Assembly (NCBI RefSeq): GCF_003751945.1
Contig: NZ_RJKL01000001.1
Coordinates: 806,001 to 870,000 of the forward strand
DNA from: Couchioplanes caeruleus
Lineage (GTDB): Bacteria > Actinomycetota > Actinomycetes > Mycobacteriales > Micromonosporaceae
Length of the DNA: 64,000 nt
Reading direction: 5' to 3'
This document shows, one piece after another, positions 21,988-38,218 of this stretch. Every line of letters starts with the position of its first letter. The first letter of the stretch is position 1. The position numbers were made by a program, and so were the translations under genes. The notes under the pieces were generated by a model. It was not told where the DNA came from. It saw only the letters and a program-made list of their open reading frames with translations, and did no database searches.

Positions 21988-22036
21988 CCCCGGCCTGGCA
22001 CGCCCGTTGCGCCGGTGTCACACCGCCGCCGAGACA

Positions 22037-22506: not shown

Positions 22507-22612
22507 ACAGTGTTCATGATCTGTTACACCCGAGTGGCGGGATGGGTGTCGTTCCCGCCGGATGGCCCACCGAGGCACCGGCATCCCACACCCACCTCTC
22601 GGGGGATCTTCC

Positions 22613-23425
22613 ATGTCTCAGTTCGTTCGTTCCGTGCTGCCCACCGCCGGTCTCGACGCGCCGCGTCTGGTGCTCGGCGCGCAGCCCTTTGACGTCGCCG
22701 CGAACTCGCTTCGCCTGCTCACGACCGGTCCGGAGCCGCTGTCGGTGGACGGTGCCGCGCTCGGCGGGGGCCTGCCGCGTCGGCGGATTCCGTTGTCGGA
22801 GCTGGCCGCGATCCTGATGCACCCGTCCTGCGACCACGCCACGAGTGACCGGGTGTGGCGGCTGCTTATCGGCCGTGCCCGCGCTGATGGTCCGGTCTGG
22901 GTCGTGGGTGCGGTCGGGGTGGCCCTGCCGGGCCTGCGCCAGGCGGCCTACCGGCTGCGCGGCTTCTCCGGTGACGTGCAGGCCGAGCTGCTGACCGCCT
23001 TCGTCGCGGCGCTGCACACGGTGAAGCCCGGTGGGGCCAAGGTGGTGCAGCGGCTGCTGTCGGCCACGTTCACTACCGCCCGCGCGGCGCTGCGCGCCGA
23101 CGAGCCGATCCGCACGAAGGCGCCGGTGGATCTGCCGGTGGCGGCTGGCGGGCATCCGGACTTCGTGCTGGCCAAGGCGGTCGCGGTCGGGGTCATCACC
23201 CCGGGCGAGGCCGAGCTGATCGGCGCCACTCGGCTGGAGGGCGTGTCGGTGGCCGACTACGCCGAGCGGGCCGGTCGTGGCTACTGGGCGGTGGCCAAGG
23301 AGCGCTCGCGGGCCGAGGAGCGCCTGGTCGCGGCGATCCGCTCCGGGGAGCTGTCCGATGAGGACGCCGCCGTGATCGCCGAGGCCACGATGACCCTCGC
23401 GGTCGACCGGGCGCACCTCGGCTGA
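22613..23425 (+). CDS. Sigma-like / helix-turn-helix protein of the conjugative element
   Basis: 270 aa. I do not recognise a named family with certainty. The middle (LRQAAYRLRGFSGDVQAELLTAFVAAL, then GGAKVVQRLLSATFTTARAALRAD, about 100-160) resembles region 2-like helices of sigma-70 proteins seen in actinobacterial mobile elements. The C-terminal part (VAVGVITPGEAELIGATRLEGVSVADYAERAGRGYWAVAKERSRAEERL, about 185-245) reads as a region 4-like helix-turn-helix. It stands alone between the iteron array and the transfer operon, and two matching promoter-like elements flank it facing outward. Control of those two operons is a reasonable inference. Confidence 0.6.
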   Translation: MSQFVRSVLPTAGLDAPRLVLGAQPFDVAANSLRLLTTGPEPLSVDGAALGGGLPRRRIPLSELAAILMHPSCDHATSDRVWRLLIGRARADGPVWVVGAVGVALPGLRQAAYRLRGFSGDVQAELLTAFVAALHTVKPGGAKVVQRLLSATFTTARAALRADEPIRTKAPVDLPVAAGGHPDFVLAKAVAVGVITPGEAELIGATRLEGVSVADYAERAGRGYWAVAKERSRAEERLVAAIRSGELSDEDAAVIAEATMTLAVDRAHLG

Positions 23426-23442
23426 CCTGCGCCTTTGCGTGC

Positions 23443-23477
23443 CCGATGTCCAAACGAGGGCCGAAATCTGTATCTCT
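23443..23477 (+). promoter_or_regulatory. 35-bp promoter-like element, copy facing the transfer operon
   Basis: CCGATGTCCAAAC, GAGGG, CCGAAATCTGTATCTCT: identical to the minus-strand element at 21953-21987 except in the 5-base spacer. It starts 18 bp after the stop of the sigma-like gene and 203 bp before the pilin start. Confidence 0.65.
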
Positions 23478-23620
23478 TAGTGCGGGACTTTCCCGCACCT
23501 GGTGACCTTCTTCGACCGGCCCCGCTGACGGCGCTGACACCCGCAACGGCCCCGCCGAACCCTTCGAAGGAGGACGGCCAACACGGCCGGTCGAGGTCAC
23601 CACCTTTCCCCTCGTCGCTC

Positions 23621-23655
23621 GCCCAGCCCCACACCTTGTGGGTGTGGGGCTGGGC
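23621..23655. terminator. Perfect 15-bp hairpin in the leader of the transfer operon
   Basis: GCCCAGCCCCACACC pairs without mismatch with GGTGTGGGGCTGGGC across a TTGTG loop. It ends 25 bp before the pilin start codon, leaving room only for the GGAAGG ribosome site. It could attenuate the operon, terminate an upstream transcript, or be a protein-binding structure. Confidence 0.65.
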
Positions 23656-23679
23656 TGCCCTGGAAGGTGCCCACGTCCC

Positions 23680-24075
23680 ATGAACCACCGCCCTCTGCAC
23701 CGCCCGACCCCGACCCCGCCCCGCCCGGTCGGCGACCGGCGCGGCCGGCGCCTGACCCGTACCGTCCGCGTCCTCGCACCGGCTGTCGCGGTCACCGCTG
23801 CCGCGCTGGTTGCCATCGCCGGCACCCCGGAGGCCGCGTACGCGGCCGACTCGCTCGACGCCGTGGTCAACAACATCCGCAACTGGCTGGTCGGCATCCT
23901 CGTCGCCGTCGCCACCCTGTTCCTCACCGTCGGCGGGCTGCGCTACGCCGCCGCCAACGGCGACCCCGGCGAGGTAGAGAAGGCCAAGCTGACGCTGAAG
24001 TCCGCCGCCGTCGGCTACGGGCTGGCGCTGCTCGCGCCGCTGTTCGTCACCATCGTCGGCAAGTGGGTGGCCTGA
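23680..24075 (+). CDS. VirB2/TrbC-like pilin of the type IV secretion system
   Basis: 131 aa from ATG after GGAAGGTG. Basic N-terminus, signal helix (VRVLAPAVAVTAAALVAIAG) ending at AAYAADS, a plausible signal peptidase site. A first helix (VVNNIRNWLVGILVAVATLF), a short charged loop (NGDPGEVEKAKLTLKS) and a second membrane helix (AVGYGLALLAPLFVTIVG) follow. This small two-helix exported layout is that of VirB2/TrbC pilins and their Gram-positive equivalents. First gene of the transfer operon; its TGA overlaps the next ATG (TGATG). Confidence 0.75.
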   Translation: MNHRPLHRPTPTPPRPVGDRRGRRLTRTVRVLAPAVAVTAAALVAIAGTPEAAYAADSLDAVVNNIRNWLVGILVAVATLFLTVGGLRYAAANGDPGEVEKAKLTLKSAAVGYGLALLAPLFVTIVGKWVA

Positions 24076-26153
24076 TGACCCACTCCACCGATCCGGCTCG
24101 CCGTCCCTTCGTCCCCAACCGCCGCCCGGCCGTCCCCGCCCGCCGTCCCCGGTCGTCCCGCCGTGGCGTGCGGCTGCTCGTCCTGATCGCCCTCGGCGTC
24201 GGTCTGACCGCCGGCCCCGCTCTGGCGGGGACGGCGTGGGCCGAGCCGTCCCCGGCACCGTCCCCGGGTGCGAGCGTGCCGAACCCCGGCTCGCGCCCGC
24301 CGGGGGCGAACCCGTCCCCGTCCGCCCCGTCGTCCCCGCCGACCGTCGTGCCGTCCCCGGCCCCCGCCCCGCCCGGCAGCGAGGCCGGGGACGCCGACGA
24401 CGACCCCGGCATGTTCGACATCCCCGGCCAGATCCGCAAGGCCATCAACGAGTTCCTGCTGTGGATGGCCAAGACCGGCCTGAAGCCGGTCATGGAGACC
24501 CTCGGCAGCACCGCGCTGTCCACCCCGGACCTGACCGGCAGCGAGCACGTCAAGGCCATCTGGACGACCAGCCTCGTCACCGCGAACGCCATCTACGTAC
24601 TGTTCATCGTCGCCGGCGGCTTCATCGTCGCCTCCCGCGAAACCCTGCAGAGCCGGCACGGGCTCAAGGAGATCGCGCCGCGGCTGGCGCTCGGGGCGGT
24701 GGCCTCGAACGTGAGCCTGATCCTGTGCGGCAAGGCCATCGAGTTCACCAACGCGCTGACCGCCGCCGTCGCTGGTCAGGGCGTGGACGGGCCGAGTGCG
24801 GCGAACGCCATTGTCGGCATCCTCTACCAGCCGTTCAACGGCGCGAGCCCGAACATCCTGCTCGCCCTGTTGGTCATCGCCGCGTCCATCCTCGGGCTGA
24901 TCGTGATCATCACGTTCGTCATGCGGGTGGCGGTGATGGTCGTACTCGTCGGCATCGCACCCCTGGCGCTGGCCTGCCACGCGACGCCACAGACCGAGGG
25001 CATCGCACACACCTGGTGGCGTGCCTTCGGCGCCTGCCTGGGCCTGCAGGTGGCGCAGGCAGTGGTCGTGCTCGCCACGATCAAGGTGTTCCTCACCCCG
25101 TCCGGCCTGGTGATGCTCGGAGTACCTCAAACGGCGAGCGGCCTGCTCGGCGTCCTGGTCTGCATCACGATGCTGTGGCTGCTGATCAAGCTCCCCGGCC
25201 TGATGAAGCAGTACGTGCTCAGCCCGATGGGGCTGCAAAGCCAGGGCCGAGGGCTGTTCGGACAGCTCCTGCAGGCGTACATGACGTTCAAGACCCTCGG
25301 TGCGGTCACCGGCCTGAGCAAGGGCAAGAGGGCCGTCATCGCAGGTGCGGCAGCCCGCCCGACAGGCGGCGGGACGGGAACGACGAGCACTGCTCGGCCC
25401 GTTTCCGCCACCCGGGGTGGTCCGGGTACCCCGCGCCCGGCGCCGTCCCGGCCGTCCCCGGCCGGTCCGGTGGCGTTCAGTAACGCCCCGACCACGCAGA
25501 CGCCACTGTCGGCGCCCGCCGGCACCGCCGGGGCACCGTCGTTCAGCCACCCGGCGCAGCCGGGCACCCCGGCGGCGACCCCGACCGGCCCGGCCCCGGC
25601 CGCGTCGTTTTCCCAGCCCAACGCTTCCCAGCCGGCCACGCCTCGACCGAGTGGACGGCCGGCACCGGCGGCGTTCAGCGGCACGGCGCCCTCACCGGCG
25701 AGCCCGACTCCGACCGGGCCGGCACCTGCGGCAACGTTCTCCAATCCGCCAACGGCGCAGAGCGCGCCGCGTCGACCCCCGGCCCCGGTCACGCCGGTGT
25801 TCTCCTCCGCACCGAAGGGCACCTCGGCGGGGCGGCCGACGGCGGCCCGACGGCCGACCGCCGCGCCTCGCCCGGCCAGCGGAGGCGGCCGTCCGCCGGT
25901 CACCACGCCGCCGGCATCGGCCCCGGCGCCAGCGGCTCGGCCGTCCCCGCGTCCGGCACCAGCGCCGAGTCCGTCCCCGGCCGCCGGGCCGGCATCGCCG
26001 CCGCCGTCCCCGCCGCGACCAGCGGGCAGCGCGGCTCCGGTGTTCCGACCGGCGCCGTCCCCGCCTCCGTCCCCACCGTCCCCGCCGCCGCAGCGGCCGT
26101 CCCCGCCGTCCCCGCCGCCCGCGCGGCGCCGTCCCCGAAAGGCAGGTAACTGA
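24075..26153 (+). CDS. VirB6/TrbL-like polytopic channel protein with proline-rich tail
   Basis: 692 aa from the ATG overlapping the pilin stop. A signal-anchor (VRLLVLIALGVGLTAGPALAG) precedes a Pro/Ser-rich spacer. Residues about 110-420 hold at least five membrane helices (NAIYVLFIVAGGFIVAS, LLALLVIAASILGLIVIITFV, MVVLVGIAPLALACHA, QVAQAVVVLATIKVF, LLGVLVCITMLWLLIKL) in the VirB6/TrbL pattern. The last 270 residues are low-complexity Pro/Ala/Ser with PSP repeats, probably cell-wall spanning or cytosolic and disordered. It forms the inner-membrane channel of the conjugation machine. Coupled to the PrgI-like gene by TGATG. Confidence 0.8.
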   Translation: MTHSTDPARRPFVPNRRPAVPARRPRSSRRGVRLLVLIALGVGLTAGPALAGTAWAEPSPAPSPGASVPNPGSRPPGANPSPSAPSSPPTVVPSPAPAPPGSEAGDADDDPGMFDIPGQIRKAINEFLLWMAKTGLKPVMETLGSTALSTPDLTGSEHVKAIWTTSLVTANAIYVLFIVAGGFIVASRETLQSRHGLKEIAPRLALGAVASNVSLILCGKAIEFTNALTAAVAGQGVDGPSAANAIVGILYQPFNGASPNILLALLVIAASILGLIVIITFVMRVAVMVVLVGIAPLALACHATPQTEGIAHTWWRAFGACLGLQVAQAVVVLATIKVFLTPSGLVMLGVPQTASGLLGVLVCITMLWLLIKLPGLMKQYVLSPMGLQSQGRGLFGQLLQAYMTFKTLGAVTGLSKGKRAVIAGAAARPTGGGTGTTSTARPVSATRGGPGTPRPAPSRPSPAGPVAFSNAPTTQTPLSAPAGTAGAPSFSHPAQPGTPAATPTGPAPAASFSQPNASQPATPRPSGRPAPAAFSGTAPSPASPTPTGPAPAATFSNPPTAQSAPRRPPAPVTPVFSSAPKGTSAGRPTAARRPTAAPRPASGGGRPPVTTPPASAPAPAARPSPRPAPAPSPSPAAGPASPPPSPPRPAGSAAPVFRPAPSPPPSPPSPPPQRPSPPSPPPARRRPRKAGN

Positions 26154-27100
26154 TGAGTCGCCGTGACGACGAGGCGCCGCTGCGCGCCCGGGTACCCGCC
26201 GATGTGGAGAGGGCTGATCGGATCGCGTTCGGCTTGACCGGGCGCCAGCTCGTCATCCTGACAGTCACCGGCCTCGTGCTGTACGCGGCGTGGACCGCTC
26301 TCGCGACGGTGGTGCCGCCGCTGGTGTTCATCGCCTGCGCGCTGCCCATCGTCGGCACGGCGTTCTTCGTGGCGGTCGGCCGCCGGGACGGCCTCGGCCT
26401 GGACGTGTGGCTCCTGGCCGGACTGCGGCACCGCCGGGCGCCGCGTCGGCTGGTGCCGTCGGAGGGTCCGGTCACCCCGGCCCCCGCGTGGATCAGCACC
26501 ACGCGGGGGCCGGGTGACCGGCTCCCGCTGCCCGCACCGCTTCGCCTACCGGCCAAGGGCATCACCGCCGACGGCCTGGTCGACCTCGGCCCGGACGGCA
26601 CCACCGGCCTCGTCGCCGCCAGCACCGTCGCGTTCGGGCTACGCACCCCGGCCGAGCAGAACGGCCTGGTCGCCGGGTTCGCCCGCTGGCTGCACAGCCT
26701 GGACGGGCCGGCGCAGATCCTCGTCCGCGCCCAGCGGGTCGACCTGACCCACGTCGCCGACCGCATCCTCGCCCAGGCGCCGGGCCTACCGGACCCGGCC
26801 CTGGAAGACGCCGCCCGCTCGCACGCGGCCTTCCTGGACGACCTCGCCGCCCGGCGCGAGCTGCTGCACCGGCACGTCACCGTCGCGGTGCGCAGCAAGC
26901 GCAGCCCCGGCCACACCGCCCATCAGGCAGCCGAGACGGTCCGGGCGCTGTCCGGCTGCGAGGTCGCCGCGAGCGTGCTCGACCCGGCCGACGCCGCCGC
27001 CACCCTCGCGGGCGCGCTCAACCCGTCCGCCGCGCCGTCCCCGTCGTCCCCGCCGCCGGGACGGCCCGTCCCCGACACCCATGGAGATGAGCAGCTGTGA
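26153..27100 (+). CDS. PrgI/VirB3-like conjugation protein
   Basis: 315 aa. The N-terminal part RVPADVERADRIAFGLTGRQLVILTVTG is characteristic of the PrgI/SCO6880-type family: a cytosolic start, then two adjacent membrane helices (about 27-45 and 50-68). The rest is soluble, with GLVAASTVAFGLRTPAEQNGLV and a helical C-terminus. Such proteins sit beside VirB4 ATPases in Gram-positive type IV systems and replace VirB3. Coupled on both sides: TGATG before, GTGA after. The C-terminal tail is again Pro/Ser-rich. Confidence 0.78.
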   Translation: MSRRDDEAPLRARVPADVERADRIAFGLTGRQLVILTVTGLVLYAAWTALATVVPPLVFIACALPIVGTAFFVAVGRRDGLGLDVWLLAGLRHRRAPRRLVPSEGPVTPAPAWISTTRGPGDRLPLPAPLRLPAKGITADGLVDLGPDGTTGLVAASTVAFGLRTPAEQNGLVAGFARWLHSLDGPAQILVRAQRVDLTHVADRILAQAPGLPDPALEDAARSHAAFLDDLAARRELLHRHVTVAVRSKRSPGHTAHQAAETVRALSGCEVAASVLDPADAAATLAGALNPSAAPSPSSPPPGRPVPDTHGDEQL

Positions 27101-28860
27101 ACCTGTTCCCGCGCAACCGGAAGACCGTCGTCCCCGAGGTGGGGACGGTCGTCCCCGGCAGCCCGGACGCCGTCGAGGTCGCCGGACGGTCGGTACGGGT
27201 CGGGGACGGCTACACCGCCGCCCTGGCCGTGACCGGCTACCCCGCCGAGGTCGGCCCCGGCTGGCTCGAACCGCTGCTGGCCTACCCGGGCCGGGTCGAC
27301 GTGTCCCTGCACATCGAACCCGTCCCGCCGGTGGTGGCCTCGCAGCGGCTGCGCAAGCAGCGCGGCCGGTTCGAGGCCAGCCGGCGGCAGGACGCCGCCA
27401 AAGGCCGCCTGGATGACCCGGAGCTGGACGCCGCGGCGGCCGACGCCGCCGAGCTGGCCGCCCGCGTCGCCCGAGGCGAAGCCCGCCTGTTCCGCCTCGG
27501 CCTCTACCTAACCGTGCACGCGGACAGCGAGCCGGAGCTGGCCGACCGGGTGACCGAGGTCCGCGCCCTCGCCTCGTCGCTGCTGCTCGACGTCGCCCCG
27601 GCCACCTGGCGGCAGCTCCAGGGCTGGATCACCGGTCTACCCCTCGCCTATGACGCGCTGGGGATGAAGCGGGTGTTCGACACCGACGCCCTCGCCGCCG
27701 CGTTCCCGTTCACATCGCCGGACCTGCCGACCACCGCCGGGGACACCGGCATGGGCGTGCTCTACGGCCTCAACCTGCACAGCCCCGGTGTCGTGGTGTG
27801 GGACCGGTGGGCACAGTCCAACTACAACAGCGTCGTCCTCGCCCGCTCCGGTGAGGGCAAGTCCTACTTCGCCAAGCTGGACCTGCTCCGCAACCTCTAC
27901 CTGGGGGTCGAGGCGTTCGTCATCGACCCCGAAGACGAGTACGTCCGCCTGGCCGAGGCGGTTGGCGGGACGATCATCCGGCCCGGCGTGCCCGGGGTAC
28001 GGATCAACCCCCTAGACCTGTCGGCCGGGGACGGCGACGACGCCCTGATCCGGCGGGCGCTGTTCCTGCAGACCTTCGTGTCGGTCATGACCGGCGGGAC
28101 GGCCATCGCTCCGGAGGAGACCGCCGCTCTCGACGTCGCCGTCCTCGCCGCGTACCGGGGCAAGGGCATCACCACCGACCCGCGTACCTGGCGGCGCCCG
28201 GCGCCGCTGCTCGCCGACGTCGCCGAGGCGTTGAAGGACGCCGGTGACGCCGGGCGGACCCTGGCCGCGCGCCTGCACCCGTACGTGGCCGGCTCGTTCA
28301 AGGGCCTCTTCGACGGGCCGACCACCACCAACCCGGACGGACACCTCGTCGTCTACGCGATCAAAGACCTGCCCGAAGAGCTGAAGCCCGTCGGGACGCT
28401 GCTGATCCTCGACGCGATCTGGAAGACGGTCAGCACCGCCAACCGCAACGGAGGCACCGCCCGGCGGCTGGTGCTGGTCGACGAGGCGTGGCTGATGCTG
28501 CGCCAGGGCCTCGGCGCCCAGTTCCTGTTCCGGCTGTCGAAGTCGGCCCGCAAGTACGGCGCCGGCCTATCGGTGATCACGCAGGACGCCGCCGACGTCC
28601 TCGCCACCGAGGTCGGCCGGGCCGTGGTGTCGAACGCCGCCACGCAGGTGCTGCTGCGGCAGGCGCCGCAGGCCATCGACGCCGTCACCTCCGCGTTCGG
28701 GCTCACCGACGGCGAGCGGGCGTTCCTGCTGTCCAGCTCACGCGGAGACGCCCTCCTCGCAAGTGGATCTTCGCGGGTGGCGTTCCACAGCCTCGCCTCC
28801 GACGTGGAGCACGACCTGGTCGTGACAGGTCCGGAGTCCAGCCCCGTGGCCCGCCGGTAG
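27097..28860 (+). CDS. VirB4/TraE-like conjugation ATPase
   Basis: 587 aa from GTG overlapping the previous stop (GTGA). The N-terminal domain (1-215) contains the HIEPVPPVVASQRLRKQRGR segment typical of actinobacterial VirB4. The ATPase domain has Walker A ARSGEGKSYFAK (about 250), AFVIDPEDEYVRLAEAVGG, Walker B RRLVLVDEAWLML (about 460) and SVITQDAADVL with downstream NAATQVLLRQAP. It energises pilus assembly and substrate transfer at the inner membrane. Full length for Gram-positive members. Confidence 0.9.
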   Translation: MNLFPRNRKTVVPEVGTVVPGSPDAVEVAGRSVRVGDGYTAALAVTGYPAEVGPGWLEPLLAYPGRVDVSLHIEPVPPVVASQRLRKQRGRFEASRRQDAAKGRLDDPELDAAAADAAELAARVARGEARLFRLGLYLTVHADSEPELADRVTEVRALASSLLLDVAPATWRQLQGWITGLPLAYDALGMKRVFDTDALAAAFPFTSPDLPTTAGDTGMGVLYGLNLHSPGVVVWDRWAQSNYNSVVLARSGEGKSYFAKLDLLRNLYLGVEAFVIDPEDEYVRLAEAVGGTIIRPGVPGVRINPLDLSAGDGDDALIRRALFLQTFVSVMTGGTAIAPEETAALDVAVLAAYRGKGITTDPRTWRRPAPLLADVAEALKDAGDAGRTLAARLHPYVAGSFKGLFDGPTTTNPDGHLVVYAIKDLPEELKPVGTLLILDAIWKTVSTANRNGGTARRLVLVDEAWLMLRQGLGAQFLFRLSKSARKYGAGLSVITQDAADVLATEVGRAVVSNAATQVLLRQAPQAIDAVTSAFGLTDGERAFLLSSSRGDALLASGSSRVAFHSLASDVEHDLVVTGPESSPVARR

Positions 28861-28901
28861 ACCCCGCAGTTCCCCCACCCTTCCCGTCAGGAGCAACCCT
28901 C

Positions 28902-30329
28902 ATGTCCCTTTTCGGCAGGTTGTCACACCCCTCGGCCCTGCTGCTGGCCGCTCCGTCCCCGGCGCCGTCCCCGTCCCCGCCGTCGGCCCCGCCGTCCCCG
29001 GCCGGGTGTGTGCCCGGTCAGGGCGGGATGCCCGACGGGCTGCTCGGCGAGCTGCTGTGCGGCACGTGGGGACCGAAGGCCCCCGCCGCTGTAGCCGAGT
29101 TCGTTCGCGTCCGGTGGCCGCTGCTGCTCGCCGCCCTCGTCGTCCTGATCGCCCTCGCCGTGGTGTGGCGGATGTGGCGACGCCGGGTCTGGTCCGCCCA
29201 CGCCGCGCAGGCCCGCTGGTTGCAGATCATTCCGCCGGTCACCGCCACCCCGGCCGCCACCGTCGGGCTATGGCGCCTGCTGGCCACGGCGCTGCCCGCG
29301 CCGAGGCGGTGGGCGTGGCGTCCGGCCCGGATCGTGTGGGAGGTCGAAGCCGACCCGCACGGGATGCGCGTCGGGCTGTGGCTGCCCCCTGGGGTGAACC
29401 CGACCGCCGTCCTGCGCCTGCTGCAGCGCGGCTGGCCCGGGGTGCGCGCCGAGCAGGCCCCGCCGCCGGTCGTGCCCGGCGGGACCGCGACCACCCTCGC
29501 CCTGCTGCCGACCCAGCCGGACTGGCTGCCCCTCGTGGACGACACCACCACGGCCAGCTCGAGGAACTGGGAGACCGCGCCGCCGGACGAGGACCGGCTA
29601 CGCGCCGTCTACGACGGGCTCGCCTCGGCCGGGCGCACCGGCGGCGGCCTGCTCCAGGTCCACATCAGCCGGGCACCGGCGCACCGGATGCGGTCACTGC
29701 GCCGGGCCACCACCCACCCCGAGCGCGCCCGCAAGACCCGAGGTGCGTCCCGCGCCGTGGGCCTGCTGGCCGACGGGTTGCGGGCGCTGATCCTCGGCGT
29801 GCTGAACATGCTCACCCCCGGCCCGTCCAGCAGCGGCAGCTCGTCGCGGCGCACCACGCATGACCCATACCTGGCTGAGCTGGCGCGGCAGGCGCGCGGC
29901 AAGCTCACCGCCGCCCCGCACCTACTCGTCGCCGTCTACGCCACCGGGGCCGGGCCGACCAAGGCCGCCGCCCTGTCCGGCGCCGCCGACATCACGAGCG
30001 GGTTCGGGCTGCTGTCGGCGCACTTCACCCGCCGGCGGCTAAGGGGCGGCACCACCGCGGCGGCGATGCGCTGGGTGCCCGAGTCCCGGATGAGCCTCGC
30101 CGCCGTCGCCGAGGCCGCCGCCCTGGCCGGGCTGCCCGCCGAACCGGCCGCCTACGGCCTGCCCGCCGCCGCGTCGCGCCGCCGCCCCGGCAACCGCGAC
30201 GTCTTCCGGACCGGCCCCGCCACCCGCCGCCGCGACCCCGAGCCGCCGAAGCCCCCGAAGCCCGACGCGCCGAAGCCCGGCACCGACGACCCCGACGAGA
30301 ACCCCCCGAACGTTTGGAGTGCTCCGTGA
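28902..30329 (+). CDS. Membrane protein of the transfer operon, T4CP partner
   Basis: 475 aa from ATG after CAGGAG. A proline/serine-rich exported N-terminus with PSP repeats, one membrane helix (LLLAALVVLIALAVVWRMW, about 75-93), then a large cytosolic part (RWLQIIPPVTATPAATVGLWRLLA, WRPARIVWEVEADPHGMRVGLWLPPGV) and a charged Pro/Lys/Asp tail. Encoded immediately before the coupling protein and overlapping it by 4 nt. Proteins of this layout in actinobacterial elements accompany the T4CP; no enzymatic motif is seen. A role linking substrate recruitment to the channel is inferred from position only. Confidence 0.6.
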   Translation: MSLFGRLSHPSALLLAAPSPAPSPSPPSAPPSPAGCVPGQGGMPDGLLGELLCGTWGPKAPAAVAEFVRVRWPLLLAALVVLIALAVVWRMWRRRVWSAHAAQARWLQIIPPVTATPAATVGLWRLLATALPAPRRWAWRPARIVWEVEADPHGMRVGLWLPPGVNPTAVLRLLQRGWPGVRAEQAPPPVVPGGTATTLALLPTQPDWLPLVDDTTTASSRNWETAPPDEDRLRAVYDGLASAGRTGGGLLQVHISRAPAHRMRSLRRATTHPERARKTRGASRAVGLLADGLRALILGVLNMLTPGPSSSGSSSRRTTHDPYLAELARQARGKLTAAPHLLVAVYATGAGPTKAAALSGAADITSGFGLLSAHFTRRRLRGGTTAAAMRWVPESRMSLAAVAEAAALAGLPAEPAAYGLPAAASRRRPGNRDVFRTGPATRRRDPEPPKPPKPDAPKPGTDDPDENPPNVWSAP

Positions 30330-31921
30330 CCACCATCCACAACCCCGACGCCGCGCCCGCCTCCGACCCGCAGGGCCGCCGGCTCAACCTGGTGCCGCTG
30401 GAGGAGCGACACGGCCTGGGCGGCAAGGTGATCGGCGTCGCCAACGCCGGCCCCCGCACCCGGATCGGGATCTCGCTGACCGACTGCCGCTACCACCTGC
30501 ACGCGCTCGGCCCGACCGGAACCGGCAAGACCACGCTGCTGATGAACATGATCCTCGACGACGTCGAGGCCGGCAGGGGCGTGGCCGCGTTCGACCCGGC
30601 CAAGGGCGACCTGATCCGGGATCTGCTCGACCGGATGCCGAAGTCCGCCGGTGACCGCCTGGTGCTGATCGACCCGGACGAGGACAAGGCCCCTCCGGCG
30701 ATCAACCTCCTGGATCCGGCGGTGCACGGCGGCACCCCGCACGACGTGGCCGCCAACGTCACCGCCGTCATGTCGAAGGTCTGGTCCCGCTGGTGGGGCC
30801 ACCGCAGCGCGGACATCTGCTACCACGCCCTGCTCACCCTGGCCCACCTGGAAGGCTCGACCCTCGCGCAGTTGCCGCGGCTGCTGTCGGACTCCAAGTG
30901 GCGTGCCGGGCGGGTCGCGGCGGCCACCAACGCACTGAAGGCGTGGGAGGGCAACACCCTCACGGAGTTCTGGGAGGGTTTCGACGCCCTCCCCGCCGGG
31001 CAGCGCGCCGGCCTGGTCGCCCCGCTGCTGTCCCGGCTGCGCCTCGTCTTGGCGCATCCGATGGCGAACTCGCTGTTCGGGGTGCCGGCCACGACGTTCT
31101 CCTTCGCCGACATCCTCGACGGCGGCGTGCTGTTGTGCCGGCTGCCGAAGGGTGTCATCGGTGAGGACGGCACCCGCCTCATCGGTTCCCTGCTGCTGGC
31201 GGGGCTGTGGCAGGCCACCACCGCCCGCGCCCGCATCCCCGAGAACCAGCGCCCGGACGCCATGGTGGTGCTGGACGAGTGTCACAACTTCCTGCACCTG
31301 CCCATCGGCATCGATGACGCCCTCGCCGAGGCCCGCGGCCTGCACACCTCGTTCGTCTTGGCTCACCAGTACCTGGGGCAGCTCTCCGGGGAGATGGTCG
31401 AGGCGATCGACGCCAACGCCCGCAACAAGGTGTACTTCGCCCTCGCCCCGCGTGACGCCGTCGACCAGGCCCGCCACCTGCGGCCCTACCTCGATGAGGG
31501 GGACCTGATCCGGCTCGGCGGCTATGAGGTCGTCCTGCGGCCGGTCGCAGGCGGTCGGGTCGTGCCACCGGCGACCGCTGACACCGAGCCCCCGCAGCCG
31601 CCGATTTCCGGCCGCTCCGAGGCGCTGCGCAAGGCGGCGAGGAAGCAGACCGGGCTGTCACACAAGGAGCGGCGGAAGTTGCTCGGCGCGGCGGTGACGG
31701 TCACGGCGAGCACCGAGTCCGAGTCCTCGGCGCCGGTTCCGGTGCCGGATCTGGTGGGTCGCAACACCTTCGCCGCTCGGGGCGAGCGGTCTAACGAGAC
31801 CACTCACGAGCCGTCCAACGAGGAATCCAACGAGTTTTCTAACGAGTCCGATGACTCGTTTGACCCCACCCCCTATAACACGTCATCCGCGCAGGTCAGC
31901 GGCGCTGAGGAGGTCTGGTGA
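30326..31921 (+). CDS. Type IV coupling protein (TraD/TraG/VirD4-like ATPase)
   Basis: 531 aa from GTG after TTTGGAG, overlapping the preceding stop. Walker A is ALGPTGTGKTTLLMN (about residue 62); AFDPAKGDLIRDLLDRMP, Walker B AMVVLDECHNFLH (about 315) and SFVLAHQYLGQL follow, as in VirD4/TraG coupling proteins that deliver DNA to the channel. No N-terminal membrane helices, so anchoring may come from the preceding protein. The C-terminal 45 residues are acidic with repeated SNE (ERSNETTHEPSNEESNE, then FSNESDDSFDP), likely disordered and a possible docking tail. Confidence 0.88.
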   Translation: MTTIHNPDAAPASDPQGRRLNLVPLEERHGLGGKVIGVANAGPRTRIGISLTDCRYHLHALGPTGTGKTTLLMNMILDDVEAGRGVAAFDPAKGDLIRDLLDRMPKSAGDRLVLIDPDEDKAPPAINLLDPAVHGGTPHDVAANVTAVMSKVWSRWWGHRSADICYHALLTLAHLEGSTLAQLPRLLSDSKWRAGRVAAATNALKAWEGNTLTEFWEGFDALPAGQRAGLVAPLLSRLRLVLAHPMANSLFGVPATTFSFADILDGGVLLCRLPKGVIGEDGTRLIGSLLLAGLWQATTARARIPENQRPDAMVVLDECHNFLHLPIGIDDALAEARGLHTSFVLAHQYLGQLSGEMVEAIDANARNKVYFALAPRDAVDQARHLRPYLDEGDLIRLGGYEVVLRPVAGGRVVPPATADTEPPQPPISGRSEALRKAARKQTGLSHKERRKLLGAAVTVTASTESESSAPVPVPDLVGRNTFAARGERSNETTHEPSNEESNEFSNESDDSFDPTPYNTSSAQVSGAEEVW

Positions 31922-32817
31922 ACCGGAACCGACTGATAAGAGATATCACTCCTACTAGCGCACAAGCTTCTGCCCCTTCCGGTGCCCGCCTGACGGCGTC
32001 CGTCGTGGCCGGCGAACTCACCAGACTCACCCCACGAGACCGGCACCTGCTCGACCTGCTCGACCAGCACAAGACCCTCACCACCGACCAGCTCGTCGAC
32101 GTCGCCTTCGGCTCCGCCGGTCGTGCTCGCAACCGGCTCAACGTCCTGCTGTCCCGCGACATCCTGGACCGGTTCCGGCACTACCAGCGGCCCGGCTCGC
32201 AGTCGTGGCGGTGGACCCTCGGCCCGGTCGGCGCGGCCCTCGTGGCGGCCGGACGCGGTGACCCGTTGCCCCGTCCGGCCACCGTGCGCGACGCCACGGC
32301 CCGACTGGCGATGTCCCCGACGCTGCCGCACCTGCTCGCCGTGAACGGGTTCTTCGTGGCGCTCACGGCGCACGCCCGCACCGACCCGAGCACGCGGCTG
32401 GACCGGTGGTGGAACGAGGCGCGGTGCCGCGAGGAGGTCGGCACCGTGGTCCGCCCGGACGGGCACGGGGTGTGGAACGTCGGCGGACGGGCGGTGCCGT
32501 TCTGGCTCGAAGTCGATCTCGGCACCGAAACGCTGTCCCGTGTCGTCGGCAAGCTCGACGGCTACGCGAAACTTCCCCCGCCCCGGGCGTACCCGGTGCT
32601 GTTCGTGCTGCCCATCGCCGCGCGGGAGGCGAACCTGCACGCCCACCTCTCCCGTACCGGGGTGCCGGACGGGCTCACGGTGGCGACCGCCGCCGACGAC
32701 CACGCGGCCGACACCGGCGGCCCGGCCGGGCCGGTGTGGCGGGTCACCGGACGCCCCGGGCGAGTCAGCCTCGCCGACCTCGCCCCGGCCGGGGACGGTG
32801 CGGTGTGGGACGGATAG
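31918..32817 (+). CDS. Replication-relaxation family winged-helix protein
   Basis: 299 aa from GTG (GTGA overlap with the coupling protein gene). RLTPRDRHLLDLLDQHKTLTTDQLVDVAFG and ARNRLNVLLSRDILDRFR form an N-terminal winged helix. PFWLEVDLGTETLSRVVGKLDGYAKL is the conserved C-terminal segment of the replication-relaxation family, whose E-x-D and K resemble a nuclease-like core. Members are common next to transfer genes of actinobacterial plasmids and elements and are thought to act in replication or transfer initiation. It is the only candidate DNA-processing protein in the operon, since no classical relaxase is present. Confidence 0.8.
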   Translation: MNRNRLIRDITPTSAQASAPSGARLTASVVAGELTRLTPRDRHLLDLLDQHKTLTTDQLVDVAFGSAGRARNRLNVLLSRDILDRFRHYQRPGSQSWRWTLGPVGAALVAAGRGDPLPRPATVRDATARLAMSPTLPHLLAVNGFFVALTAHARTDPSTRLDRWWNEARCREEVGTVVRPDGHGVWNVGGRAVPFWLEVDLGTETLSRVVGKLDGYAKLPPPRAYPVLFVLPIAAREANLHAHLSRTGVPDGLTVATAADDHAADTGGPAGPVWRVTGRPGRVSLADLAPAGDGAVWDG

Positions 32818-33884
32818 TCGGGCTGGCCGTGGCCGTCGTGGCGACCGTGCTCCTGCTGATCGCGGGTGCCGCCGCCGGGGTCGTCTCGGCCATGTTCGGC
32901 GGCGGCGGGTACGGCTCCGGGTGCGCGGCAACCGTCGCCGCGCCCGGGGCCGTCCCGGCCGGGCTCACCGCCGAGCAAGCCCGTAACGCCGGGGTGATCG
33001 TGACCGTGGGCGAGCGGATGCGGGTACCGGTGCGCGGGTGGGTGGTCGCGGTCGCCACCGCCCTCCAGGAATCCAACTTGATCAACCTGGGAAACCTCGG
33101 CGACGCCAACGACCACGACAGCCTCGGACTGTTCCAACAGCGGCCGAGTCAGGGGTGGGGCACCCCGGAACAGGTCATGAACCCCGACTACGCCGCGACG
33201 AAGTTCTACGAGCGCCTCCTCACCGTGCCGGGGTGGGAACGGTTGCCGGTCACCGAGGCCGCTCAGGCGGTGCAACGGTCGGCGTACCCGGACGCCTACG
33301 CCAAGCACGAGCCGCGCGCTACGGCCATCGTGACCGCGTACACCGGCGGGACACTGCCGACCTGCGACGGCGGACCGATCGCGCCGTCCGGGTGGGGCCG
33401 CCCCGTCGCCGGGACGGTGGGCTCCGGATTCCGTACCGGCGACCGGCCCGGCCACGACGGAGTCGACATCATGGCCGCACGCGGAACCGTGATCCGTGCC
33501 GCCTCGGCCGGGGTGGTGGTGACGGTGCGGTGCAACATCGGCGGCAACTCGTGGCAGGCGCCCTTCGGGCCGGGGATGCCGTGCGATGTGGACGGCAGCC
33601 CGACCACCGGCGGGTGCGGGTGGTACGCCGAGGTGCGCCACGCGGGCGACATCGTGTCGCGGTACTGCCACATGGTGCGGCAACCGATCGTACGAGTCGG
33701 TCAGACCGTCGCGCCCGGACAGCCGATCGGCTACGTCGGAACGTCGGGCAACTCGTCCGGCCCGCACCTGCATTTCGAGATCCACGTGCGCCGTGAGGCG
33801 CTGCACAACCGAGAGGAGGTCTACGAACCTGTAGATCCTGTTGCCTTCCTCGCGCAGAGGGGGGTGAAGCTGGGGGCAGCCTGA
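32805..33884 (+). CDS. Membrane-anchored transglycosylase-M23 endopeptidase of the transfer system, interrupted by a group II intron
   Basis: 359 aa when read unspliced, from GTG overlapping the previous gene by 13 nt. An N-terminal membrane helix (RIVGLAVAVVATVLLLIAG), then a lysozyme-like domain (VAVATALQESNLINL with likely catalytic Glu, GLFQQRPSQGWGT). The M23 metallopeptidase domain follows, with zinc ligands in RPGHDGVDIM and GPHLHFEIH. It cuts peptidoglycan for the conjugation channel. The intron enters after ...HFEIH (33785). Splicing would continue in frame into TGYPAHEG...VDPVSFMAKKGVRL (exon 2, 35949-36023; 351 aa). Unspliced, the intron itself supplies the tail ending VDPVAFLAQRGVKLGAA. 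Confidence 0.88.
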   Translation: MGRIVGLAVAVVATVLLLIAGAAAGVVSAMFGGGGYGSGCAATVAAPGAVPAGLTAEQARNAGVIVTVGERMRVPVRGWVVAVATALQESNLINLGNLGDANDHDSLGLFQQRPSQGWGTPEQVMNPDYAATKFYERLLTVPGWERLPVTEAAQAVQRSAYPDAYAKHEPRATAIVTAYTGGTLPTCDGGPIAPSGWGRPVAGTVGSGFRTGDRPGHDGVDIMAARGTVIRAASAGVVVTVRCNIGGNSWQAPFGPGMPCDVDGSPTTGGCGWYAEVRHAGDIVSRYCHMVRQPIVRVGQTVAPGQPIGYVGTSGNSSGPHLHFEIHVRREALHNREEVYEPVDPVAFLAQRGVKLGAA

Positions 33885-34374
33885 TCCGGAGAGGTGTCCG
33901 GGTCGGGTGGGAGCAGCCCCGACAACGTCGGGACGGTCTGGCACTGCCAGACAGGCCGGGTCCGGCTAGCGAGACGGGACGGCATACGAGCAGGAACCAG
34001 CGGTGAGACCCCGTAAGCGAAGAACCTGCCCCGAACCTGGCGGATATGGGCAGGAGTGAGGAACGCATCGTCCTACGTGGATTTGGGCGGTGTCCGACCG
34101 GCCTTCGGGCTGGTCTGGGTTGTCGGCTGAGCTGCGCGTGGTCGGCAACGTCCTCCGGGGCGGAGCTGGGTGCCTCACCCGTCGCATTCGGTTGTCAGTG
34201 AACACGGGAACCGCTGCGGTCTCGCCTCCCACGTCGTCGCCATCGGCGTGAAGGCAAGGCCCACCGTCGGCCGATGGGGCCGCAGCGGGGCGGAGCCGCC
34301 GTAGTAGTCCGAGGTCGGGAAAGCCGATCACATGGCGAAGGGCGGCAGCGAGTCAAGCAGCGAAGGAGAGTGCA

Positions 34375-35832
34375 ATGCCGGAAGACTCGCCGGTGAATAT
34401 CGGCGATCTGCTCGCGCGGCCCTTGGTGGCCGAGCGGCGGGTACTGGAGATGCAAACCAAACTGCACCGATGGTCGGTGGCCGATGCTGGCCGCCGGTTC
34501 GATGATCTGTTCAACCTCGTGGCGGACCCGGCGTTCCTGGTGATGGCCTGGACACGGGTTCGGGAGAACAAGGGTTCGCGGACCGCCGGGGTGGATTGGC
34601 AGACAGCCCACTCCATCGAGGCGTCCGCGGCCGGCGTGGTCGGGTTCCTGGAACAGGTGCGTGCACAGGTCAAGGCGCGGGCCTTCGTTCCGGTCCCGGT
34701 GCGGCAGCGGATGATCCCCAAGGCGAGCGGCAAGCTGCGCAAGCTGGGGATTCCGACGATCGCAGACCGCGTCGTGCAGGCGTCCTTGAAGCTGGTGTTG
34801 GAGCCGATCTTTGAGGCGGATTTCCTGCCGTGTAGCTACGGTTTCCGCCCGGAACGCCGCTGTCAGGACGCGATCGAGGAGATCCGTTATCTCGCCGCCC
34901 GCTCCTACGAGTGGGTGTTCGAGGGTGACATCGCGGCCTGCTTCGACGAGATCGACCATGCGGCCCTGCTGGACCGGGTGCGTCGACGCATCGCCGACAG
35001 GCGCGTCCTGACGCTGGTCAAGGCGTTCCTCAAGGCGGGCGTGCTCAATGCTCTCGGGCACGTCCGTGGCTCTCACGCCGGTACTCCCCAGGGCGGCATC
35101 CTGTCGCCGCTACTGGCCAACATCGCCCTGTCCGCGCTCGACGAGCACTTCGCCGAGCTGTGGCAGCGCCACCGCAATCCCACCGCGCGCAAAGATCACC
35201 GCCGACGCGGAGGCGCGACGTATCGCCTGGTGCGCTACGCCGACGACTTCGTCGTCATGGTGTCCGGCACGCGCGAACAGGCCATGAGCCTGTGGGATGA
35301 GGTGGCCGCGATCATCGCGCCGCTCGGGCTGCGTTTAGCGCCCGAGAAGACGAGGGTCGTGGGCATCAACGAGGGCTTCGACTTCCTCGGGTTCCGCATC
35401 CGGCGGGACCGGCAGAGGGGAAGCGACCGCTACTTCATCTACACCTACCCGGCGCGCAACACCCTGACGTCGGTCAAGGCGAAGATCAAGGCGGTCACAC
35501 AGACACAGACCCTGGACCGCCCGCTCGACGAGATCCTCAAACATCTCGGCACCATCGTGCGGGGCTGGACCCTGTACTTCCGGCACTCCTCAGCCAGCGT
35601 CACCTTCGCCTACCTGCGCTACTACCTGTGGAAACGGGTCGTCGTGTGGCTACGGCGTCGGCACGCGAAGCCGGGATGGAAGTACATCCGCCGCCAGTAC
35701 TTCAACCAAGACTGGTGGCCCGAATGGAACGGCATCAGGCTCTTCGACCCCAGTACGGTGAAGATCCACCGTTACCGCTACCGGGGCACGAAGATCCCCA
35801 CGCCGTGGGGCACGCGCCCAGCAACAACCTGA
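34375..35832 (+). CDS. ltrA: Group II intron reverse transcriptase/maturase
   Basis: 485 aa from ATG after AAGGAGAG. RT blocks are complete: KLRKLGIPTIADRVVQASLKL, CSYGFRPERRCQDAI, EGDIAACFDEIDH, GTPQGGILSPLLANI, the catalytic VRYADDFVV, and GFDFLGFRIRR. The maturase domain X follows (VRGWTLYFRHSSASVTFAYLR) with a GIIM-type end (GWKYIRRQYFNQDWWPEWNG). There is no HNH endonuclease domain, so retrohoming would use nicks at replication forks or rely on another nuclease. It lies within intron domain IV and needs to bind its own intron RNA for splicing. Confidence 0.95.
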   Translation: MPEDSPVNIGDLLARPLVAERRVLEMQTKLHRWSVADAGRRFDDLFNLVADPAFLVMAWTRVRENKGSRTAGVDWQTAHSIEASAAGVVGFLEQVRAQVKARAFVPVPVRQRMIPKASGKLRKLGIPTIADRVVQASLKLVLEPIFEADFLPCSYGFRPERRCQDAIEEIRYLAARSYEWVFEGDIAACFDEIDHAALLDRVRRRIADRRVLTLVKAFLKAGVLNALGHVRGSHAGTPQGGILSPLLANIALSALDEHFAELWQRHRNPTARKDHRRRGGATYRLVRYADDFVVMVSGTREQAMSLWDEVAAIIAPLGLRLAPEKTRVVGINEGFDFLGFRIRRDRQRGSDRYFIYTYPARNTLTSVKAKIKAVTQTQTLDRPLDEILKHLGTIVRGWTLYFRHSSASVTFAYLRYYLWKRVVVWLRRRHAKPGWKYIRRQYFNQDWWPEWNGIRLFDPSTVKIHRYRYRGTKIPTPWGTRPATT

Positions 35833-35850
35833 CCAGCCGGGACTCGTGGA

Positions 35851-35884
35851 GAGCCCGGTGCTCGGAAACGGGCACGCCGGGTTC
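35851..35884 (+). ncRNA. Group II intron domain V (catalytic hairpin)
   Basis: 34 nt. Outer stem GAGCCCGG/CCGGGTTC contains the AGC catalytic triad. A 2-nt CG bulge and inner stem TGCTCG/CGGGCA with a GAAA tetraloop complete the standard domain V. Confidence 0.95.
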
Positions 35885-35948
35885 GGACGGGCGGCCAAGG
35901 GAAACGGGCGGCGGAAATGCCGAAACCGCGCCCTTGGTCGACCCGTAC

Positions 35949-36023
35949 ACCGGCTATCCGGCCCACGAAGGCAACGCCGTGGACCCGGTTTCATTCATGG
36001 CGAAAAAAGGCGTCCGACTGTAA
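35949..36023 (+). pseudogene. Exon 2 of the M23 endopeptidase gene (stranded C-terminus)
   Basis: 75 nt encoding TGYPAHEG, then NAVDPVSFMAKKGVRL and TAA. It has no start of its own and is in phase 0 with exon 1 (ends 33785), so it can only be expressed by splicing of the group II intron. VDPxxFxxxxGVxL is the usual C-terminal end of actinobacterial M23 proteins of this kind. Confidence 0.85.
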
Positions 36024-36073
36024 ATCGTGAAGTGATTCTTCGCACAAATCATCGACTTGACTTCACCACCCGG

Positions 36074-36093
36074 ATCGAGCGTCCATGAACGTG
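36074..36093 (+). promoter_or_regulatory. Shared 20-bp upstream motif, copy 1
   Basis: ATCGAGCGTCCATGAACGTG, 30 bp before the gene at 36123, with TTGACT 11 bp upstream of it (36057). The same motif with one base change recurs at 36812. Its centre CGTCCATGRACG is near-palindromic, which suggests a regulator site overlapping the promoter. Confidence 0.55.
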
Positions 36094-36122
36094 TAAGCAA
36101 TTCCCGGACGAAAGGAAAGACA

Positions 36123-36527
36123 ATGCCGCACGCGACCGCCCCGCAATTCACCACCGAGTCCCTTGCCGCCGCCGTGAAGTCCGTAGCGGCCAACTGTGAC
36201 ACCCCGACGGTGGTCACGCTGACCGCCGCCGGGGCCACCGTCACCGGGCGGGCGGAAGCCGTCCCCGGTGCCCCGCTGACCGCCGACGCCGCCGCCGCGA
36301 CGCTGGCCGGCATGGCGCGGCTGATCGGCCGGCACCCGGGCATGTTCGGCGCCGACGTGGCCGGGTACGCGCTGATTCTGCCCGGTGAGCGCGTCGCGTT
36401 CGCCGCCGACCGAACCGGGACCACGCACCACATCCAACTCCCCGGAGCCCCCACCGAGCCGCTACGGTCCGACCGGTGGGGCGCCATCTGTGACGGGCTC
36501 ACCGCCATGATCAACGCCGCGCGCTGA
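36123..36527 (+). CDS. Hypothetical protein, element accessory
   Basis: 134 aa from ATG after AAAGGAAAG. No family recognised. Small mixed protein without membrane helices: ESLAAAVKSVAANCDTPTVV, a strand-rich middle (LTAAGATVTGRAEAVP), LAGMARLIGRHPGMFGADVAGYALILPGERVAF and a C-terminal helix GAICDGLTAMINAAR. First gene of the accessory block after the transfer operon, preceded by its own promoter-like region and followed by a strong terminator, so it is expressed alone. Confidence 0.65.
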   Translation: MPHATAPQFTTESLAAAVKSVAANCDTPTVVTLTAAGATVTGRAEAVPGAPLTADAAAATLAGMARLIGRHPGMFGADVAGYALILPGERVAFAADRTGTTHHIQLPGAPTEPLRSDRWGAICDGLTAMINAAR

Positions 36528-36557
36528 CCGTCACCCCGCCGCACCACCGCCCCGCCA

Positions 36558-36585
36558 CCGCGCCCGGCCGATCGGCCGGGCGCGG
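36558..36585. terminator. Perfect 28-nt palindromic terminator
   Basis: Each half, CCGCGCCCGGCCGA, is followed without a spacer by its exact complement, then GCGCGTTTCC. It lies 31 bp after the gene ending at 36527. The remaining 330 bp up to 36919 hold no supported gene, only the motif at 36812 and a TTGACA box at 36796. Confidence 0.7.
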
Positions 36586-36811
36586 CGCGTTTCCTACCCC
36601 CGAAAGCCGACCCCGCCCACGGCCGATTTACGGCCACGCCCCACCGGCCCTAGGCAATGCCACCCGCGCCGCGCGAACGTCGCACAGCGGCGAAGCTGGG
36701 GCCATCAAATAGCGCGCCCCGCCGCAATCGCGCCCGCAATCGAGGGCCGCGCGGCCCCGAATCCGGGTTCCCGGAAAGAGTCATGAAAACCGGGGTTGAC
36801 AACAACCGGGC

Positions 36812-36831
36812 ATCGAGCGTCCATGGACGTG
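36812..36831 (+). promoter_or_regulatory. Shared 20-bp upstream motif, copy 2
   Basis: ATCGAGCGTCCATGGACGTG, 19 of 20 bases as at 36074. TTGACA lies 10 bp upstream (36796), flanked by two AACCGGG copies. It is 88 bp before the winged-helix gene at 36920. Confidence 0.55.
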
Positions 36832-36919
36832 GGCAACAACAACCGCCCCGGCGAAACGCAAGAACGCCAACGCGGAATCGCTATTACCAATCCCATTTGT
36901 GTACGGAGGTTTACCCGCC

Positions 36920-38218
36920 ATGACCGCACCCACCGCCACCCCGGCCGCCGAGTCCGTCGCCCGTTCGCTCGCCGCCCACCCCGACGGCGTCACCGCACGC
37001 GACCTCGCCACGTCCGCCAAGGTTGGCAACTCCACCGCCGCCAAGATCCTCGCCGCCATGGAGGCCGACGGCACCGCCACCCGCATCCCCGGCCCGACCA
37101 ACGGCAACCGCAAGAGCGCCGACATCTGGCGGCCCGCCGCCACCACCGAGGAGGCCACCGTGACCACCACGACCGACGAGGCGCCCGCCGCGACCGACGA
37201 CGCCAGCGCCGCCGACGAGGCGCCCGCCGCGACCGACACGGCCACCACGACCGACGGCGCGGGCAGCGCCACCGCAACCGACGACGCGCCCGCCTCGACC
37301 GACGAGGCCGCCGCCGACGCGCCGACGCCGACCGACGGGGCCGCGCCGAACGAGGCGGGCAACGCCGACGGGACGGACGGGAAGCCGGTCGAGGCGCCGG
37401 TTTCCGGGGCGCCGGTGTCGGGCGCGCCGTCCGGCGCCGGGGATCACCTAAAGATCGTGATGGTGGCCGGGGTGCTCGGTGACCACCCGGACGGGGTGAG
37501 CGCGGCCGACCTGATCGAGACGTCCGGCCTGCGGGCGGCGGTCGTGGCGCGGGTACTGACCGCCATGGAGGTTGCCGGGGCGGCGGTGCGCAAGCCCGCC
37601 GACAAGCCCGACGGCGTAGACCTGTGGGTGCGCGGTGAGGCGGACCTGGACAAGGTCGATCTCGCCAACGCGGCCCCGTACCGCGAGTGCGTGTGCACGT
37701 GCGGCCACAAGCACCGGGTCAAGACCGGCGTCGCGGTCACCACGATGCGCCGCCCCGGTCGCACCACCGGCGAGATCAACACCGACGGGTCGGCGAAGCT
37801 CGGCAAGGGCGAGCTGGAGCGCATGGTCGAGGCGTGGATGCGCGACCTGGGCACCGGCCACGACGTCACCCCGACCACCGTGGGCAAGGAGCTGGGCGGA
37901 CGTAGTTCGGGCGCGTGCGGCAACGCGCTGAACAAGCTCACCGCCGCCGGGGTGGTCGTGATGACCAGCGCCGCGCCCGCGAAGTTCGCCCTCGCCGACA
38001 ACCCGCCCGCCCCGAGTGACGCGGTTGCCGCGCTGATGACCCGCCCGGTGACCACCGACGAGGCGGTGAGCGACGAGGCCCCGGCCACCGACGACACCCC
38101 GGCCGACGCGACCACCGACGCGACCACCGACGAGGCCCCGACCACCGAGGAGGCCGCGACCACGGCAGACGCCCCGGCGACCAACGAGGCCCCGGCCGAG
38201 CTTGCCGACGCCGCGTGA
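36920..38218 (+). CDS. Winged-helix protein with acidic Thr/Asp/Glu/Ala repeats
   Basis: 432 aa from ATG after GGAGGT. Three helical DNA-binding-like units: VARSLAAHPDGVTARDLATSAKVG (10-60), LGDHPDGVSAADLIETSGLRAAVVARVL (190-240) and VGKELGGRSSGACGNALNKLTAAG (about 325-350). They are separated by low-complexity TTDEAPA/ATDDA repeats (about 80-170 and 375-432). A possible zinc site, YRECVCTCGHKHR, lies near 260. The acidic repeats could mimic DNA or hold domains apart. Similar proteins occur in Frankia and Micromonospora mobile elements with no known function. Repeated codon units GACGAGGC make recombination-driven length change likely. Confidence 0.7.
   Translation: MTAPTATPAAESVARSLAAHPDGVTARDLATSAKVGNSTAAKILAAMEADGTATRIPGPTNGNRKSADIWRPAATTEEATVTTTTDEAPAATDDASAADEAPAATDTATTTDGAGSATATDDAPASTDEAAADAPTPTDGAAPNEAGNADGTDGKPVEAPVSGAPVSGAPSGAGDHLKIVMVAGVLGDHPDGVSAADLIETSGLRAAVVARVLTAMEVAGAAVRKPADKPDGVDLWVRGEADLDKVDLANAAPYRECVCTCGHKHRVKTGVAVTTMRRPGRTTGEINTDGSAKLGKGELERMVEAWMRDLGTGHDVTPTTVGKELGGRSSGACGNALNKLTAAGVVVMTSAAPAKFALADNPPAPSDAVAALMTRPVTTDEAVSDEAPATDDTPADATTDATTDEAPTTEEAATTADAPATNEAPAELADAA

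Follow-up and report, generated by a model that had tools for sequence, protein, structure and literature searches.

A group II intron in an actinomycete M23 hydrolase gene appears to carry a replacement C-terminus for its target family

Introduction

Mobile elements that bring foreign C-termini to their host genes are known from fungal mitochondria, where they occur in the atp6, atp9, cox2, and nad3 genes of Glomus and in the atp6 gene of Allomyces (PMC3630166). In the available part of that source, the element is described as bringing an in-frame substitute for the 3' coding end of the host gene while the native end stays downstream, and the elements contain LAGLIDADG or GIY-YIG endonuclease genes. 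A related arrangement is reported for mitochondrial introns of Tremella fuciformis, in which the exon that follows is repeated at the intron 5' end, with similarities of 72.5% and 81% for nad4; as far as the accessible text goes, these duplicated exons are close to exon size (PMC7315562).

Among bacterial group II introns, C.te.I1 of Clostridium tetani is alternatively spliced by way of exons lying downstream and four repeats of domain V/VI, and the sections of the paper at hand (PMC3919590) give approximately 75–95% unspliced mRNA for a bacterial group II intron. The Ll.LtrB intron of Lactococcus lactis resides in a conjugative relaxase gene, and introns of this type depress host-gene expression; the portion of that source consulted mentions no substitute tail (PMC6003770). 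Alternative splicing is covered in a review of group II introns, whose available text contains no intron-borne tail (PMC4424553). No bacterial or group II case was found in the open-licence literature, as judged by title or the start of the abstract among the matches listed.

The present work concerns an intron in a 64,000-nucleotide stretch of the Couchioplanes caeruleus genome (here called the window) that interrupts the gene for an M23 hydrolase. A preliminary description of this DNA knew of no described case of an intron with a mimic of the host 3' coding end. For bacteria and group II introns this still holds within the sources above, but mobile elements that bring host-gene ends have been published from fungal mitochondria (PMC3630166, PMC7315562, each available in part), and these elements are the nearest precedent for the window intron. 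The in-frame substitute for the host end and the native end downstream are both present in the window. The window intron differs from the Glomus and Allomyces elements in that it is a group II ribozyme from a bacterium, encodes a reverse transcriptase, and has its tail inside structured ribozyme RNA. It resembles the Tremella introns in having a 5' end similar to the exon after it, but the segment concerned is 40 nt fitted into domain-I hairpins and the host is a bacterial M23 gene. As with C.te.I1, one group II intron locus is predicted to give several protein isoforms, including one from unspliced mRNA; in the window, however, there is one domain V/VI and the tail is inside the intron. Like Ll.LtrB, the intron occupies a conjugation gene carried by a mobile element, here a putative one.

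Results

Host Gene and Neighborhood

The genome around the window is 8.4 Mb in two contigs. Exon 1 (32,805–33,785, plus strand) encodes an M23 hydrolase through the catalytic HLHFEIH motif, as identified from homologues and from a match to Pfam PF01551 over residues 216–332 of the unspliced protein. The 3' end of exon 1 reads ...NSSGPHLHFEIH, and the intron is inserted exactly after HLHFEIH. The gene is located among conjugation genes and is adjoined by the genes for a Replic_Relax protein (31,918–32,817) and a TraG/TrwB-like ATPase (30,314–31,921), the latter with weak Pfam matches. A putative VirB4-like ATPase (27,097–28,860) and a putative serine recombinase (18,314–20,149, minus strand) are named from a reading of the ORF list only. 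A tRNA is found at 18,248–18,332 beside the recombinase-like ORF, and the tRNA, this ORF, and the run of conjugation genes suggest an integrative conjugative element inserted at the tRNA (18,248–38,218).

Intron Anatomy

The group II intron extends from 33,786 to 35,948 on the plus strand and was identified by its ends, its domains V and VI, and its reverse transcriptase/maturase. The intron starts with GTGCGCC at 33,786, a GUGYG-type start. The 3' end reads GACCCGTAC at 35,948, with AC at 35,947–35,948 as an AY-type end. IBS1 (ATCCAC, 33,780–33,785, plus strand) pairs at all six positions with EBS1 (GTGGAT, 34,077–34,082, plus strand). When 53 introns including that of the window were examined with G-U pairs allowed, a 6/6 partner for the intron's own IBS1 appeared at intron positions 290–350 in 55% of cases, versus 22% with swapped IBS1s.

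An intact reverse transcriptase/maturase of 485 amino acids is encoded at 34,375–35,832 on the plus strand, with matches to PF00078, PF08388, and TIGR04416 (363.8 bits; cut-off 300). The intron ORF matches reverse transcriptase and maturase models only and, unlike the Glomus elements, the intron has no endonuclease gene. Domains V and VI (35,849–35,948, plus strand) were assigned by folding and by a match to Rfam RF00029 (50.6 bits; gathering score 40), the single match to this model in the 64-kb window. Alternative splicing like that of C.te.I1 was considered and rejected, given the one domain V/VI and the lack of repeats for several 3' splice sites.

The preliminary description had placed the boundary at 33,785/33,786 from GTGCG, the 6/6 EBS1–IBS1 match, the domain V/VI structure, the 3' AC, and an in-frame exon join. 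The first four features are all present. The exon join at 35,948 is also in frame, but it does not serve as proof of the boundary, since in-frame joins recur at every third base nearby. The boundary is fixed instead because the tails of intron-free homologues are collinear with the spliced product.

Spliced Product

Exon 2 (35,949–36,023, plus strand) encodes the native tail TGYPAHEGNAVDPVSFMAKKGVRL followed by a TAA stop, and the same ending is found in intron-free homologues. The predicted splice at 35,948 gives EIH|TGYPAHEGNAVDPVSFMAKKGVRL-stop in frame. The collinear tails of two intron-free homologues read NGYPAHEGNAIDPVSFMAQQGVRL (locus L096) and TGYPAHEGNAVDPVSFMTQKGVRL (locus L141), and the tail of protein P0002 from Salinispora arenicola is that of L141. 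As read from these alignments, the spliced gene is predicted to yield the tail of its intron-free homologues. In a codon-by-codon comparison with L141, 244 codons of exon 1 are unchanged, 48 differ synonymously, and 33 are changed; the corresponding counts for exon 2 are 20, 2, and 2. These counts against a relative without the intron indicate that exon 2 is intact and not decaying.

Read-Through Tail and Its 40-nt Middle

Reading from exon 1 directly into the intron stays open for 32 codons and ends at a TGA stop at 33,882–33,884, as had been described. The resulting tail, VRREALHNREEVYEPVDPVAFLAQRGVKLGAA, is encoded with its stop at 33,786–33,884 on the plus strand, and the same tail occurs in six other M23 proteins (see below). 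Both residues that never vary among 52 natural homologues, P and G, are present in the tail, as is the nearly invariant F.

Relatives of the intron were gathered by reverse transcriptase similarity, which gave 79 loci, the best of them 60% identical. The 76 distinct 5' ends (the window and 75 others) were collected with a regular expression that captured 66 of these 79 loci and excluded oddly built 5' ends. The 5' end of a typical relative reads GTGCGCC..GAGGCGCTG, then GGAGGT, and further on GGTGAAGCTGRGGGCAGCCTGA. In the window, these generic family stretches code for VRREAL..R..V and GVKLGAA. A derivation of the whole intron 5' end from an M23 gene was therefore rejected, since the first 35 nt and the last 24 nt are family sequence of introns located elsewhere.

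The 40-nt middle (33,821–33,860, plus strand), which encodes YEPVDPVAFLAQR with two of its bases completing the flanking codons, is special to the lineage. In the region of the two hairpins B and C, identity is 0.39 between the window and the family, versus 0.63 within the family (75 others). The preliminary description had noted that the tail similarity would be a matter of chance if relatives in unrelated genes had the same 5' sequence; such sharing is found at both tail ends and not in the M23-like middle. An HxHFE motif is located upstream in 0 of the 73 relatives that have upstream DNA (of 75), and none of them is in an M23 gene.

Several features of the relatives are recorded here for their own sake. 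A second relative in the same genome (L002, G000:C1:7200634-7202742) is approximately 68% identical, starts with TTGCGCC, and is without the M23-like tail. Nine relatives (L027, L036–L038, L049, L050, L052, L070, and L073) are inserted after a W..DI motif that resembles the first acidic residue of DDE transposases, and four (L013, L016, L025, and L030) are inserted near the end of a putative IS3-type OrfA, the gene naming in both groups being our own reading. On this reading, the insertion sites of both groups look like conserved target motifs. An IS1380 transposase gene annotated in Rhodococcus jostii RHA1 extends approximately 30 codons into a related intron (L119; NC_008270.1, locus 1554–2597), so that public annotation treats the intron 5' end as the gene end.

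Resemblance to the Native Tail

The read-through and native tails, described earlier as sharing a motif, align with a BLOSUM62 score of 53. None of the 75 other family read-throughs scored above 18 against the host tail. Base shuffling of the 40-nt middle gave no score of 53 in 60,000 trials (best, 43). A structure-preserving randomization reached 53 in 6 of 60,000 trials, a count that is no clean p-value because the generator fixes the bases paired to the flanks and keeps part of the real sequence. In a comparison of 57 introns (window included), host tails shorter than 40 residues gave scores of at most 19 except for the window at 53, and two much longer host frames, of 260 and 300 residues, reached 45 and 39, scores that arise by chance with long targets; the choice of host frame was automatic, which is unreliable in GC-rich DNA, and any single one of these relatives could mimic its host tail.

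A chance resemblance between the read-through and the host tail can be argued from the fact that VRREAL..R..V, like most of GVKLGAA, is shared by the intron family in general, so a small part of the match, G-V-K/R-L, comes free. It is contradicted by the score of 53 against at most 18, by the shuffles, and by the recurrence of this tail in six further M23 proteins. Unless those six proteins are artefacts, chance is a highly improbable explanation, and it was rejected.

Six Further M23 Proteins with the Tail

A full-length search returned 2542 homologues, and among the 120 listed, one (P0009) has the tail. A search with residues 320–359, which comprise the eight residues PHLHFEIH and the tail, returned 7 candidates, of which 6 were significant proteins. 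P0122 is from Actinoplanes sp. NPDC049118; P0009, P0123, and P0125 are from JGI; and P0124 and P0126 have the source "lgn". All six are M23 proteins, and in each the tail directly follows HLH[FY]E[VI]H, at the same residue as in the window. The co-occurrence of tail and motif is partly by construction, since the query held both, but the query does not account for the difference in identity between bodies and tails. Copies inserted in M23 genes without the tail, or copies of the tail elsewhere, could be missed by such a tail-based query.

In pairwise comparison of the seven proteins, the bodies (last 150 residues before the tail) are 49–72% identical and the tails are 67–100% identical. The tails are more identical than the bodies by more than 15 points in 21 of 21 pairs. 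For natural homologues, 2115 pairs were sampled, with homologues lacking the motif or having tails outside 15–40 residues excluded; among the 1078 pairs whose bodies are 55–65% identical, the fraction with a gap of this size was 0.004, and in the other three identity bands no pair had one. Strongly diverged bodies with similar tails indicate that the tail belongs to a mobile piece and not to the genes. Introns probably lie behind the six other tails as well, judging by their intron-typical VR[RC]EAL start.

Length differences among the seven tails are whole codons. Their amino-acid identity is highest in the M23-like part (0.925) and lowest in the linker (0.41), and in the wider family the nucleotide identities of the corresponding regions are alike (0.63 and 0.65); this sets amino-acid against nucleotide identity and is neither a strict test nor one of synonymous rates. 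The pattern fits selection on the protein but may also reflect recent common descent.

Searches for Further Copies

The intron-start pattern after HFE[VI]H codons was found without mismatch only in the window among 354 genomes of the family; two matches with three mismatches look like chance, and a reversed control also gave one. No second copy of the tail was found with the read-through query among the matches listed for 354 family and 397 order genomes, where the best-scoring loci inspected have natural tails. The same query detected no second tail copy in 394 genomes of the class at E ≤ 1e-10, nor in further drawn sets of 6, 299, and 66 genomes. The genome sets overlap, and the sets of 299 and 66 center on the family and genus of the window. 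Viral contigs gave no match to the junction and no relative by tail patterns; one M23 homologue among them has a natural tail. No match to the tail was found in phages. A 125-nt query from the intron 5' end returned 26 plasmid records, and the 15 listed are shorter or partial 5' ends.

RNA Folding and Protein Models

The 40-nt middle with its flanks is predicted to fold into two hairpins of domain I (z = –2.75; 2 of 200 shuffles as good), hairpin B at 33,817–33,839 and hairpin C at 33,841–33,867 (both plus strand), the latter with CGCA in its loop. The relatives also have two hairpins there. Of the 75 relatives, 71 contain CG[CT]A, and in 55 it lies in a predicted hairpin loop. The loop hairpin was kept in 5 of 1500 synonymous recodings, by a criterion that the real sequence satisfies and that was chosen after the real sequence had been seen. 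By folding energy alone, the real segment is ordinary, with 938 of 3000 synonymous recodings at least as stable. The 40 nt contain codons that are rare by the usage of four neighboring genes (CCT, GTA, and GTT at 0.03, 0.02, and 0.01, respectively), and exon 2 likewise contains rare codons.

The form with the intron tail was modeled with AlphaFold2 (59 sequences). A strand (339–343) and a helix (345–350) are predicted, with a mean pLDDT of 96 over residues 341–350 and a poor value of 68 over the linker (331–340). For P0002, which represents the natural form, a helix is likewise predicted (340–346), and the pLDDT over 331–340 is 98. When the model was compared with solved folds, M23/LytM domains appeared at ranks 1–3 and folds of other kinds at ranks 4 and 5. 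The tail lies outside the Pfam M23 model, whose match extends only to residue 332, close to the junction. The predicted structures are evidence of the compatibility of the tail with the M23 fold and not of activity.

Discussion

The results are best explained by a group II intron lineage that seems to carry along a substitute C-terminus for its M23 target family, a reading to which we assign a probability of about three in four. In this proposal, the lineage would insert into M23 genes directly 3' of the DNA for HLH[FY]E[VI]H. By recognizing the DNA of the catalytic motif, it would remove no more than the short final element of the fold. The first 96 nt of the intron, part of ribozyme domain I, would have been remodeled into an in-frame substitute C-terminus, D-P-V-x-F ... 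G-V-x-L. In unspliced mRNA the intron 5' end would restore the lost element, and splicing would restore the native one. Both mRNAs would then be productive and the cost of insertion lower. Splicing in vivo, translation of the unspliced mRNA into a working enzyme, and the lowered cost are presumed here. A benefit is plausible because, in the sources available in part, group II introns depress host expression and one of them leaves most of its mRNA unspliced.

A stronger form of the proposal, which we consider slightly better than an even bet, is a retroelement for which splicing is optional. Part of domain I would act as a replacement exon, the same 40 nt serving both RNA structure and the C-terminus. 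An M23-specialized lineage of this kind could invade distantly related M23 genes without making the host dependent on splicing. As for the origin of the tail, an intron-free M23 gene in genome G338 reads VRRPAHDNRAQAYEPVDPVA after HLHYEVR, a gapless 14/20 match to the tail; the M23 locus recorded there (L133; G338:C1:2835211-2835363) has no sign of an intron start and reads HLHYEVRVRRPAHDNRAQAYEPVDPVA. Judged by this similarity, the tail may come from an M23 gene of the G338 type, a possible donor, or may have been shaped in place.

Two other histories must be weighed against the proposed adaptation to M23 genes. A single capture of the tail from an M23 gene into domain I could have been followed by mere inheritance as the intron spread among M23 genes, with splicing doing the work and the unspliced product being without a role. 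The tails of P0122 and the window are identical, as in recent copies, a donor type exists in the G338 gene, and exon 2 is intact, all as such a relic would have it. The 0.925 identity of the M23-like part versus 0.41 for the linker speaks against it, within the limits of that comparison given above, as do the whole-codon length differences; moreover, rare codons and kept hairpins are unlike a plain paste from a GC-rich gene. We regard passive descent as unlikely. Alternatively, splicing could have been lost in this or other hosts, so that the intron 5' end has become the new end of the gene and exon 2 is a relic. All seven proteins are predicted with the intron tail as their end, and a group II intron of another bacterium leaves approximately 75–95% of the mRNA unspliced (PMC3919590, in the part available). 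In the window, and for the window only, the intact domain V/VI, EBS1–IBS1 pairing, maturase, and exon 2 oppose this domestication, which is less probable still.

If the proposed lineage is as described, a selfish intron would have adapted to the gene family it targets by itself providing the protein end that is lost. Insertion would then have its cost blunted in a second way in addition to splicing, and the built-in tail could offset the loss of host expression associated with introns of the Ll.LtrB type. One short sequence would be under two codes, that of ribozyme structure and that of protein. In genome annotation, such genes are reported as intact M23 genes, and the intron and the native tail are both missed. 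The locus would also make it possible to test how inefficient splicing shapes the sites at which group II introns survive in bacteria.
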